Origin: Branchiostoma floridae
Lineage: Eukaryota > Chordata > Leptocardii > Amphioxiformes > Branchiostomatidae
Reading direction: 5' to 3'
Length of the DNA: 64,000 nucleotides
Assembly (NCBI RefSeq): GCF_000003815.2
Contig: NC_049982.1
Coordinates: 10,253,947 to 10,317,946 of the forward strand
The position numbers were made by a program, and so were the translations under genes. The notes beneath the pieces are model-generated. The model saw only the letters and a program-made list of their open reading frames with translations, did not search any database and had not been told where the DNA came from. The number at the start of each line of letters is the position of its first letter. Within the stretch, counting starts at the first letter, position 1. Below are positions 45,101 through 51,214 of this stretch, one piece after another.

Positions 45101-48100
45101 GTACTTCCAGTGGTGAACCGCCAGGAAACGGCTGTCTCGCATTGTGATCTCGTAGGACGTGATCACGATGGGATGGACGCCCAACTCCCCATGCACCCTG
45201 GTTGGAGTGAACGTTACAAATAATTCATTTCATGCAAAATGACCTTTGAGTTGAGCTTCATGGTTTCTTTGTCATCCTCATGCTTGTGGTCATTTGTGTT
45301 ATACCGGACAGAGCTATACAGAAAGTCATGCAGAGAGAAGGATGGCAATGACTCTAAATTTTATTGACGATGACTCTAAGTTCTTGTCGACTTGCTGTTT
45401 GTCTTTATGTTCATTTTTGTGTAGGTACAATTCACAATTGATCCCCACCGAGTTAGACTTCACATATCTAAATCATAAAGAATCATTTAGAATATTCTGT
45501 TATCTAGCCTAGCAGCTAGAACTGAACTGAACTGAACTAGCCTAGCTTATCTCACCTGAACATCTTTCGCCGAAGCTTAGTGCGCTGTGCCATGGTGCCA
45601 TGGTAGATGAGAACTGGGACCTGTTCAAAACACACAAATCCCTTTAGCCGCAGTATTACAATAGTAAAGAAGTGCATGCTTTGGTGCAACAAGACGTTAC
45701 ATGTTTACGCAAACCATGGATAGTGAGTGAGTGTGAGTGTGAAGGACATTCACAAGCAATTAAGATCAATCAAATCTTGACATAAATAAACTAAATCTTG
45801 ACATTCAGGCTGCTACAAAAAATCATGAAATTTTCAACCATTTTAGATTCCCATCAGTTATAAGGCTAAAAACAACTTAGTATTATACTTATTTGTGATT
45901 TGGCTTGATTTGGCATAACATTTGAAGCCTGACAGCTGCAATAAAATTATAACCACAGTCTGCATGATTGCTGGGAAGACAGCATATCTTCACTAACCTT
46001 AGGGGTGAATCTGCGGAACTCTGAGTACCAGTTGGACAGGGTTGAGAGAGGCGCTACGATCATGAACGGTCCGATCATACCCTCGCCGATCAGCTCTGCA
46101 AACAGGGCGATACACTGCACCGTCTTACCCAGACCCATCTCGTCTGCAAGGATACCGTTCACTCCGTTCTCATACAGCACCTATGAAACAATATAAAATT
46201 TTGTTAAAAAGACTTCACCTCAAGAAGAGCTCGATACTGCAAGCTTTGCAGTGGTTATTTGTTTGCGAACCCAACACCAGGGTGAACACTCCATTTTCCC
46301 TCAATTGACAGCGAAATTCAATCCCTGGGGAACTTCAATGCATTTGCAGTATGCTACAATATATAGTGCAGAGATAATTCATGTCGGTGATATTTAATAC
46401 CAAACTGAGTAGTTGCATCAACATATGCATACCATCACTTTTTTTTTTCATCTCCAAAACTTTGCAAGTTGTAATTTTCTTAGATGTAATTCCAGTTCTC
46501 TTTCAGGAAATTGTAGATTGCATGTTGGTATTCTGATCTCAAGAGTTCACCCAAACCTACCTTCATCCAGTCCATGCCCTGTAGCTGGTACTCCCTCAGC
46601 ACCCCTCCACTGAACAGCTCCGGCTGCCTGTCCGACACTGGCTTGCCGTCGATGACTCTGCGGAATGTGTCTGTTGGCTTCTCCTTCTCCATAATCTGAA
46701 CTATGGAGCGGGGAACGCTCTGATCTTCTGGTGCATCTGGAACGACTTGTTCTTCTCCTTCCAGCTTCTGCTTCTTCTTCTCAAGCTCCTCCTTACTGAT
46801 GTAATCTGCCAGGCAGTACTCCGAGTCATCCTCTCGTTTCCTCTTCTTGGCATGTTTCTCATCCTCAGAAGGGCCAGCTTCCTCTGGTTCTGTCTTCACC
46901 TTGGCTGCCGCCTTGCTTCCACGTGTAGACTTGGCTGCGGATTTGACAGGACTGGGATGACTGTCTGACTGGTGGCGTCTGTCACTGCGTCGGACGCTCA
47001 CTTCCTGGCTCCCAGTGGTCTCCTTCAATCGTTTCTTCTCCTCTTGCTTCTGCAACCGTTTCCTGCGAGCCTCTGCCTTCCGCTTGGCCTCCTCCGCCTG
47101 CCTCTCCATCCTCTTGAGGAGGAACTCTGTGTAGGTGTTGCTCTTCTTCAGCAGATGAGTGAGTCGGGAGAACCTCTGTTCCTTCAGACTCTGGTCCCAC
47201 TGCTCTCTAGCCTTCTCCATCCGGGCCTTCTCCTCCTCCTCCAGTTCCTGGTGTAGTTTCTCCTCCTCTTCCAACATGGCTGCTGTGATGAGATTGGGTC
47301 CACCATCTTTGTTCTCCGTGCCCTTGTCAGAATGGAAAGATCCGGCCACAGGCTCTTTGGCTACCTCCTCAACTAGAAGTAACAGAATGGTACAAGTCAA
47401 AACGATTGTTACACAGGCACATGTACCTCTCTGGAGTGGTGTTTTGAGCAATAATTAACACTCTCTTTATAAATTTCTAACACTTCTCTGTTAATAAAAC
47501 TTCTGTCGAAGGCCCTATTTTAACAAGATAGCTAAACCTAACAACACCTTTGAAGTTTTCTGAAGTATGCCGCATTTGAATTTTAACTGGAATAGAAAAC
47601 CATAAATGTTATGAACCTAAAGCACTCTGAAGTTGTCATTTGGCACCCCAATCTGTACTGGTTATGGAGTAAGTTTGACAGCAGGAAGAAGGTTAACTTG
47701 GCTTATAGTAGAGTACTACATACCTGGCTTAGGGCTGGATGGTTCACTACCAGTTGTCCCTGGCTCTGGGCTTGCTCTCTGATATTCCCTCATTTCTGCA
47801 CTTGTGATGTCCTTCTTTGTTTCTAGTTCTGATAACAATGGACTAGAACCAAGAACTTTGGGGGTTTTGTGAGCAGAGGTACTGTCTGGGTGTTCAGGAT
47901 CCTTTGGCGAGTTTTCAGCACTATGGAACGATGATGTAAGCTCAGATACAGCAGACGAAAAGGAATTGTCAATAGAAACGTTTTCCTCAATACCACTCTC
48001 ACTGCTTGTAATGTCTAAGACTTTCGTAGGCTCAGCTTTCTGGAATGATGCGAGTGCTGGGAGATATGGATCGGGAGGTTGTACTTCTTCAAGAAATGAT

Positions 48101-51100: not shown

Positions 51101-51214
51101 ATACCTACCACAGCTCCCGACACCTCCTGGCTTGGCGCGCTTTGCAGTGACGCGTAACCTTTGCTGACCCAGATCAGGTGAGAAATTTTCCCGCGAAAAA
51201 TCAGACTCAACCAT
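36187..51214 (-). CDS. HELLS: HELLS / LSH SNF2-family chromatin remodeller with N-terminal UBZ4 finger (19 exons, 1285 aa)
   Basis: Exons: 51214-51109, 50128-49928, 48968-48869, 48481-47724, 47372-46561, 46180-45998, 45620-45556, 45197-45048, 44730-44605, 44087-43985, 43632-43465, 42990-42836, 40829-40700, 39790-39698, 39307-39188, 38566-38450, 37939-37780, 36945-36774, 36325-36187; phases agree and the sum is 3858 nt. HELLS uses ATP hydrolysis to remodel nucleosomes in the nucleus and supports DNA methylation of repeats, working with CDCA7. Seen: AMLEEEE and [13 protein letters not shown] coiled region, Walker A DEMGLGKT (672-679), DEGH (778-781), TGTPLQN (806-812), GRPKRR insertion, [22 protein letters not shown] (1106-1116), [11 protein letters not shown] (1136-1146), LLDRSDL near the end. 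Vertebrate HELLS is about 838 aa. The extra length is residues 1-390: a zinc finger at 105-124 and a Ser/Pro/Glu-rich linker. No catalytic residue is missing. Confidence 0.95.
37467..37630. repeat. 20-bp minisatellite, about eight units
   Basis: Units of the form GACATCGACCCTGACCGNCC repeat in tandem with scattered substitutions in a HELLS intron. Overlapping frames on the minus strand made of repeated GRCR-like residues come from this tract. Confidence 0.9.
39975..40073 (+). repeat. tRNA-like sequence (tRNA pseudogene or SINE head) with Pol III terminator
   Basis: GCGGCTGAGCGGT at 39981-39993 fits an A box. A perfect T arm, GTGGG TTCGAAC CCCAC (about 40040-40056), contains the B box GGTTCGAACCC, and eight or more Ts follow at 40065-40073. 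The D-arm form resembles type II (Leu/Ser) tRNAs. The acceptor and anticodon stems do not pair well, so a functional tRNA is unlikely. GCATGCATGG palindromic repeats lie just upstream (39880-39918). It sits in a HELLS intron, antisense to HELLS. Confidence 0.55.
40543..40706. repeat. 38-bp minisatellite carrying copies of a HELLS 5' splice site
   Basis: TTTACCTGGG recurs exactly every 38 bases at 40581, 40619, 40657 and 40695; a degenerate copy precedes. The last unit contains the authentic donor of the exon 40829-40700. On the minus strand each unit therefore reads CCCAG|GTAAATACTG. Confidence 0.9.
40930..42571 (+). mobile_element. Degenerate mariner-like DNA transposon with long inverted ends
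   Basis: About 95 bases at 40930-41025 recur inverted at 42470-42571: CCGATATTGGTTGATTTCTC against CCAATATTGGTTGATTCC on the reverse strand, and GTGCGTGGCAGAACACTT shared. Just inside the left end, the plus strand encodes mariner-type transposase fragments: [17 protein letters not shown] and HRMVMNDRQ of the helix-turn-helix region, then, after frameshifts, [12 protein letters not shown] and NFLKRFVT, then GKVMASVFW. Frameshifts and stops break the frame, so no active enzyme is made. It is inserted in the HELLS intron between 42836 and 40829, opposite in orientation to HELLS. Confidence 0.82.
44424..44509 (-). pseudogene. Partial duplicate of a HELLS exon inside its own intron
   Basis: This segment copies the 3' part of the exon 44730-44605 including its donor (homologous to 44592-44675), from GTTCTGCCAGGTTGTTCTG back to the CTTCCTAAGTCATCG border. 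It lacks the exon's 5' half and any acceptor, and encodes one change (Pro to Leu). It cannot act as a normal exon. Confidence 0.8.
44510..44608. repeat. 20-bp minisatellite carrying copies of another HELLS 5' splice site
   Basis: TTACCTTCCT is repeated with an exact 20-bp period at 44521, 44541, 44561, 44581 and 44601. The copy at 44601 holds the authentic donor of exon 44730-44605; the others are intronic duplicates reading GGAAG|GTAAGACATG on the minus strand. Confidence 0.92.
49365..49728. repeat. Poly-T tract and interspersed inverted-repeat element in HELLS intron
   Basis: About 20 Ts are followed by sequence bounded by GCGTGCAAAATAC (49411-49423) and its inverse GTATTTTGCACACTG (49714-49728), with many internal GTGCAACTT and TTGCACA words. 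The 141-codon plus-strand frame through it is Cys-rich only because of these words. Confidence 0.55.
50911..50922 (-). promoter_or_regulatory. E2F-type site in HELLS intron 1
   Basis: CGCGCGGGAAAA on the plus strand reads TTTTCCCGCGCG on the minus strand, matching the E2F core TTTCCCGC. Confidence 0.4.
51187..51198. promoter_or_regulatory. Near-palindromic E2F site inside HELLS exon 1
   Basis: TTTCCCGCGAAA matches the E2F/DP consensus (TTTSSCGCGAAA) on both strands. It lies 16-27 bases into the coding sequence, at codons for FSREN. Vertebrate HELLS is a cell-cycle gene responsive to E2F; conservation of that logic here is inference. Confidence 0.5.

Follow-up and report, generated by a model that had tools for sequence, protein, structure and literature searches.

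Why should a HELLS remodeller of the lancelet Branchiostoma floridae begin with a zinc finger of the kind found in the ubiquitin ligase RAD18, where did this finger come from, and what could it bring to the protein? The question is raised by a stretch of 64,000 nucleotides (contig NC_049982.1; C4:10253947-10317946, the window), for which a first-pass annotation had proposed a HELLS gene with an N-terminal RAD18-like UBZ4 finger. We followed this proposal up in the whole assembly (513,431,437 bases in 431 contigs), reading both the HELLS gene model and the bounds of the RAD18 exon from the splice signals and open frames of this one genome assembly. As far as the sequence goes, the finding stands and is strengthened: HELLS carries an exon captured from RAD18, and a function can be proposed for it from the copied module. 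With a probability of roughly 0.6, we suggest that this exon targets HELLS to nucleosomes ubiquitylated at H2A K13/15.

The modelled parts of the gene are given below in window coordinates, where a slash within a splice signal marks the exon boundary.

51109..51214, minus strand: HELLS exon 1, coding part, with the ATG at 51214; an open frame with the donor GTG/GTAGGT, within a CpG-rich stretch that holds a presumed E2F-type site.
49928..50128, minus strand: HELLS exon 2, open solely in the joined frame, with the donor CAG/GTAGCT; an alternative acceptor at 50137 leaves the frame unchanged.
48869..48968, minus strand: HELLS exon 3, the apparently RAD18-derived UBZ4 finger and LR motif; 100 nucleotides (nt), intron phases 1 and 2.
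47724..48481, minus strand: HELLS exon 4, a low-complexity linker, open across 758 nt; its start completes S-S-x-x-K, like the next exon of RAD18.
46561..47372, minus strand: HELLS exon 5, the conserved AMLEEEE coiled region onward, alignable to the HELLS chain 9z04 from residue 22.
36770..46180, minus strand: the remaining modelled HELLS exons, introns included, with the SNF2 and helicase C domains; the junction 39695/39307 is provisional and the model stops before the extreme C terminus.

When the first five exons are joined (51214-51109, 50128-49928, 48968-48869, 48481-47724 and 47372-46561), they yield 659 residues without a stop. In this frame exon 3 codes for C-x2-C-x11-H-x3-C at residues 105-124 followed by EKKESLR, exactly as first described; with the alternative acceptor at 50137 the finger lies at residues 108-127 of the same frame. 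The donor of this exon, AAG/GTAGGA, is good, since only 1.3% of the GTs in the window score as high (with a generic matrix), and its acceptor is pyrimidine-rich. The open frame of 758 nt in the linker exceeds chance, as 0 of 20,000 simulations remained open. A second C-x2-C within the linker (CKNC, residue 175) was considered as a further finger and rejected, because its partner ligands could not be assigned. Past the linker, a profile search of the modelled protein detected the SNF2 domain (E 1.6e-79) and Helicase_C (E 4.2e-25); the text searched begins at the second Met and leaves out eight residues read at the junction 39790-39695/39307. From exon 5 onward the protein aligns with 9z04 from its residue 22 (E 7.7e-52, 333-residue query). 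The N-terminal coiled region and the SNF2 and helicase C domains were thus all found, which places the protein among the HELLS/LSH remodellers and bears out the view that the phases of the finger exon join it to an otherwise ordinary HELLS.

The finger has the zinc ligands C105, C108, H120 and C124 and an aspartate, D122, two residues past the histidine, which is the UBZ4 pattern. The ligand pattern occurs a single time in the six frames of the window, compared to a mean of 0.175 in first-order Markov sequences (40 replicates), so that the spacing by itself is modest evidence. A phmmer search of PDB sequences returned 13 matches with E values up to 10, among them RAD18 (E 3.6e-10 for 5vf0_B, over UBZ and LR motif, and 6.2e-5 for 2mre_B), WRNIP1 (0.0016 and 0.015) and RAP80 (0.058). 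At the sequence level, the similarity to RAD18 excludes chance as the source of the finger. Absent from these matches is 9z04, a solved HELLS chain of 838 residues that is finger-less and that we take to be human HELLS, 838 being presumably the human length; for this one chain, the statement that the finger is missing from vertebrate HELLS is correct. AlphaFold2, given the 32 residues of the exon product and, as a second row, the RAD18 paralogue, predicted a helix at residues 11-30 and called no strand (mean predicted local distance difference test score 82, predicted template modelling score 0.44). Foldseek found three PDB matches with E values up to 10 and none at 0.001; the best was the RAD18 UBZ 2mrf, with a root-mean-square deviation of 0.9 over 24 columns and 50% identity, yet an E value of 1.5. 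The predicted fold is therefore supportive yet weak, because of its short length. Taken with the sequence matches, the identification as a UBZ4 finger of RAD18 type, and thus as a putative ubiquitin binder, is supported.

Where, then, is the counterpart of this exon in the same genome? A genome search with 34 residues of the finger exon led to two places, the exon itself and C5:8384351-8384449 (E 3.0e-9). The latter locus is RAD18, as its adjoining open frames resemble the RING-like, UBZ and SAP-like exons of that gene, the RING-like one also by sub-threshold Pfam matches. The reverse search with the RAD18 exon gave three places, namely RAD18, HELLS (E 3.4e-8) and a SPRTN-like exon at C1:4905692 (E 0.0375), which makes the HELLS finger exon and the RAD18 UBZ exon mutual best non-self matches among the scored candidates. 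By its splice signals, the RAD18 UBZ exon spans C5:8384349-8384448 and runs from CAG/CTGAC to AGAAG/GTGATG, while the HELLS exon runs from TAG/TGGAG to AGAAG/GTAGGA. Both are 100 nt long, both have intron phases 1 and 2 and the same residue boundaries, and 20 of 32 residues are identical. The next exons of both genes open with TTCTG (TTCTGCCCCTAAG in RAD18, TTCTGGAGTGAAG in HELLS) and give RSSAPK and RSSGVK, respectively, so that the identity runs through the nucleosome-binding LR motif of RAD18 into the next exon (RSSxxK). Within this region E129-S137 (E-K-K-E-S-L-R-S-S) is identical to the same-genome RAD18 at 9/9 positions, L134-R135 being the LR dipeptide.

The likeliest explanation of these data is that the finger exon of HELLS was captured from RAD18, possibly together with the start of RAD18's next exon. 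Gain by exon shuffling, one of the options raised in the first-pass annotation, is thereby supported by a matching donor exon. It looks like a copy and not a move, because RAD18 retains its UBZ exon as well as the SAP-like and RING-like exons. We infer the direction from RAD18 to HELLS, because the solved RAD18 chains carry the finger and the solved HELLS chain is without it. As the phases 1 and 2 are unequal, a frame would be lost if the exon had simply been inserted into an existing intron; it would be kept if the captured segment brought its downstream splice junction along and was placed upstream of the old HELLS start. A RAD18 origin was also considered for exon 2 and for the linker and was rejected, since a tblastn search of the RAD18 locus with the 659-residue N terminus yielded, besides the finger exon (E 6.6e-9), three rows with E values of at least 4.7.

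The RAD18 gene contains a run of N (C5, about 8382380-8382620), which may be an assembly gap, and, in the intron directly upstream of its UBZ exon, a minisatellite of ~18-nt units (C5 8383900-8384260). The third place found by the reverse search holds another UBZ4-like finger (C1:4905692-4905760), which follows a PIP-like stretch and closes a frame of 250 residues; this is probably SPRTN.

The HELLS copy of the RAD18 exon appears to be old. In a Nei-Gojobori comparison of the two exons, a pairwise count that does not split the changes between the HELLS and the RAD18 branch, 19.8 of 19.8 synonymous sites differ (pS, the synonymous proportion, is saturated) and 19.2 of 76.2 nonsynonymous sites do so (pN, the nonsynonymous proportion, 0.25); different codons are used at 14 of the 20 identical residues. 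Despite this synonymous saturation, the zinc ligands persist, as do the residues that correspond to the ubiquitin and acidic-patch contacts of RAD18. When neutral drift from the RAD18 exon was simulated, the frame and eight key residues (the four zinc ligands and four further residues) survived in 7.5e-5 of 40,000 runs at a divergence d=0.5, and in fractions of 0.0013 and 0.0135 at d=0.3 and d=0.2. Such low survival means that the copy is either young or selected, and the saturation speaks against a young copy; the finger exon is thus likely to be under selection. A recent segmental duplication was rejected, as blastn of 46501-51300 against 19.7 kb of the RAD18 locus left the finger exon undetected. 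The best of the 23 rows from this comparison (54 nt, 74%, E 0.002; the other 22 rows had E values of 0.08 or worse) lies at window 49418-49471, in the intron that precedes the finger exon. Its partner at C5 about 8391206 is ~6.9 kb downstream of the RAD18 UBZ exon and in opposite gene orientation, and because of this distance and orientation the match is probably a shared dispersed repeat. Nothing in the two loci suggests homologous introns.

What could the captured exon do for a remodeller? The UBZ4 finger would grip ubiquitin, the LR motif would dock on the H2A-H2B acidic patch and the long linker would tether this UBZ4-LR module to the SNF2 motor. The module would target HELLS to nucleosomes whose H2A has been monoubiquitylated at K13/K15 by RNF168, both at double-strand breaks and in post-replicative chromatin, and the motor would then open damaged, notably heterochromatic, nucleosomes for resection. 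Both the binding of ubiquitin by the HELLS finger and this target we infer by analogy with RAD18. There, as a passage of PMC9464978 describes, the UBZ lies between ubiquitin and nucleosome, and further contacts, to the acidic patch, come from the LR motif. According to passages of PMC6667477, the exchange D221A in RAD18 abolishes binding to H2AK15ub, and the UBZ with the nuclear localisation signal (UBZ-NLS) alone is enough to stimulate homology-directed repair. The exchanges H219Y and R226C impair both the foci and the binding of ubiquitin, whereas E227K leaves 53BP1 suppression intact, and R226C/E227K are read by the authors as separating the PCNA role from the break-repair role (passages of PMC11260465); R234 is described as crucial for the nucleosome (passage of PMC11854596). 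Numbered by H219, the HELLS equivalents are H120, D122 (D221), R127 (R226), G128 (E227) and L134-R135 (L233-R234), i.e. H219, D221, R226 and R234 are kept and position 227 is a glycine. HELLS would thus keep the residues needed for recruitment to breaks and differ at a tolerant one. According to passages of PMC7038987 on repair, CtIP accumulation, resection and repair in heterochromatin are all promoted by human HELLS, whose absence is not rescued when 53BP1 is lost as well. For the latter reason, delivery of the motor to ubiquitylated nucleosomes seems a better guess than mere displacement of 53BP1.

The captured finger might instead read the ubiquitin that UHRF1 places on histone H3 or PAF15 where DNA is hemimethylated, and so tie HELLS to maintenance methylation beside CDCA7, which we regard as unlikely. 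Abstracts describe HELLS as acting with CDCA7 in DNA methylation, and this genome contains a CDCA7-like zf-4CXXC_R1 domain (two exon matches on C2, the better one crossing one TAG). A plain UBZ would suffice for such a role, however, while E129-S137 is unchanged at 9/9 positions from RAD18, where the LR motif serves the H2A-H2B acidic patch. Since a CDCA7-type domain exists in this genome, the captured exon probably complements the partnership in methylation rather than replacing it.

Recruitment to monoubiquitylated PCNA or other replication ubiquitin, which the first-pass annotation had offered alongside ubiquitylated chromatin, appears quite improbable, and chromatin is the favoured target of the two. 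UBZ4 fingers do serve replication-coupled repair proteins, e.g. WRNIP1 and SPRTN, which counts for PCNA. Cells moreover depend on the RAD18 UBZ for PCNA ubiquitination, which does not require it in vitro, but passages of the same study on forks make it an unlikely recruiter of RAD18 to stalled forks (PMC11260465). Neither a strict PIP nor an APIM motif is present in the 659 N-terminal residues, where a looser PIP pattern occurs only within the finger, and with PCNA as target the copied LR motif would stay unused.

A further possibility is that the finger exon lies outside the main HELLS mRNA, either as an alternative or relic exon or as part of a separate short upstream gene. The exon joins rest on predicted splicing, and the methionine at AMLEEEE could be an internal start. 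On the other side stand the in-frame joins at both ends of the exon, the likely selection on it and two features at the 5' end of the gene:

50500..51700, strand not assigned: CpG-rich stretch resembling a promoter, at the 5' end of HELLS, with an observed-to-expected (o/e) CpG ratio of 0.96-1.13.
51187..51198, minus strand: near-palindromic site TTTCGCGGGAAA in exon 1, presumably of E2F type, 16 bases past the A of the ATG; its sole occurrence in the window.

Within the stretch analysed (46000-54100), CpG o/e stays at 0.00-0.54 across 46300-50500 (14 bins of 300 bases, GC 31-57%) and is 0.15-0.54 in the bins at exon 5, which has no CpG-rich stretch like that at exon 1. Given that gene bodies are methylated in lancelets, such a distribution points to a promoter at exon 1 and a single transcribed body that spans the finger exon and HELLS. 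Mammalian HELLS is an E2F target; the shorter pattern TTTSSCGC has five occurrences, including those at 50921 and 51187. Furthermore, neither AATAAA nor ATTAAA is found in the intron 47723-47373 before exon 5, and no in-frame ATG lies between AMLEEEE and the preceding stop. The finger exon thus appears to be included in the main HELLS transcript, and its exclusion is very unlikely.

In yeast, the partner docked by the Rad18 finger, Rad5, is a SNF2-family ATPase. That the HELLS finger likewise is a protein-protein dock and not a ubiquitin reader, as could be argued from passages reporting that cysteine changes abolish Rad18-Rad5 two-hybrid binding and that a 170-230 peptide is enough for it (PMC8759821), is the least probable explanation, since D122 (the ubiquitin-binding D221 of RAD18) and the LR motif are both kept.

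Several observations weigh against a RAD18-derived module that targets HELLS to H2AK13/15-ubiquitylated nucleosomes. The sole Pfam match of the finger was zf-WRNIP1_ubi (E 0.54; 11.5 bits, with a cut-off of 26.4). The NCBIfam model TIGR00599 rad18 matched partially (E 0.0062, 15.8 bits, positions 180-217 of 397; the full-length cut-off is 175), so the profile search that had been proposed as a check came out weaker than the pairwise similarity. We count these scores as a limit of the profile libraries and not as a refutation, because the genome's own RAD18 exon scores about equally in TIGR00599 (E 0.0019, 17.5 bits). A dedicated zf-Rad18 model belongs to SMART. The 12 of 32 finger residues that differ from RAD18 lie in part in the helix, and affinity may differ accordingly. 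At d=0.1, drift alone preserves the frame and the key residues in 10.6% of the runs (0.106). High CpG o/e also occurs at 52000-52300 (1.27), 52900-54100 (0.90-1.08) and 46000-46300 (0.81), so that the CpG argument is not exclusive, and the place of the finger in HELLS is predicted splicing in one assembly, of which it may be a peculiarity. In the pull-downs described in a passage of PMC5426901, RNF168-ubiquitylated nucleosomes were not bound by RAD18(201-240) fused to maltose-binding protein (MBP); reviews that cite Hu et al. 2017 state the contrary.

Two side observations concern the HELLS gene downstream of these exons. An element of ~1.6 kb (window 40936-42564) lies inside an intron and has inverted-repeat ends with arms of 36, 22 and 35 nt that are 83-91% complementary. 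Its plus-strand frame looks mariner transposase-like by eye, and a Pfam search of the element gave nothing above cut-off. The HELLS exon 44730-44605 has its 3' half repeated in the next intron (window 44430-44610), behind several tandem aaggtaagacatgttta units, which adds donor-like sites.

How vertebrate HELLS reaches damaged chromatin is, to our knowledge, not settled. The passages on resection and repair by human HELLS in PMC7038987 name no ubiquitin-binding part. A natural fusion of HELLS with the RAD18 module would be an evolutionary pointer that both act at the same place. Going further, it may tentatively be speculated that lancelet HELLS itself reads H2AK13/15ub nucleosomes in competition with 53BP1, like RAD18, and that the fusion is a Rosetta-stone link by which HELLS and the RNF168-RAD18 pathway share nucleosomes in vertebrates too; we hold this as possible rather than probable. 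If lancelet HELLS is such a reader, a single polypeptide would recognise the break mark and also remodel it. The locus also captures a domain gain with the donor exon, its boundaries and its phases still visible in the same genome. A description of a HELLS-UBZ fusion was not found in the literature searched (whole-word HELLS and UBZ, titles among the matches listed), and the main text of PMC10538959 uses none of the terms Branchiostoma, lancelet, chordate or coiled-coil.

Compared to known systems, the HELLS finger shares with the RAD18 UBZ4-LR module (human residues 198-240) the zinc ligands, the conserved aspartate, the arginine past the finger and EKKESLRSSxxK, and with RAD18 of the same genome also exon length and phases. 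In RAD18 the module sits on a RING/SAP E3 ligase, whereas in HELLS it sits on a SNF2 remodeller, with 12 of 32 residues changed from the same-genome RAD18. The UBZ4 fingers of WRNIP1 and SPRTN share its spacing and, by prediction, its fold but show weaker similarity; the SPRTN-like frame stops two residues past the CL of its finger and the WRNIP1 chains in the PDB stop within a few residues of theirs. The solved HELLS/LSH chain 9z04 has the AMLEEEE coiled region and the SNF2 and helicase C domains in common with lancelet HELLS but is finger-less, and 21 residues precede its aligned region compared to about 410 here. SMARCAD1 is a SNF2 remodeller whose ubiquitin-binding fold, CUE, is unlike UBZ4, and we know of no LR motif in it. 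As proposed for lancelet HELLS, it has its own ubiquitin-binding part serving repair, and it is listed as a reader of H2AK127/129ub in a passage of PMC9464978.

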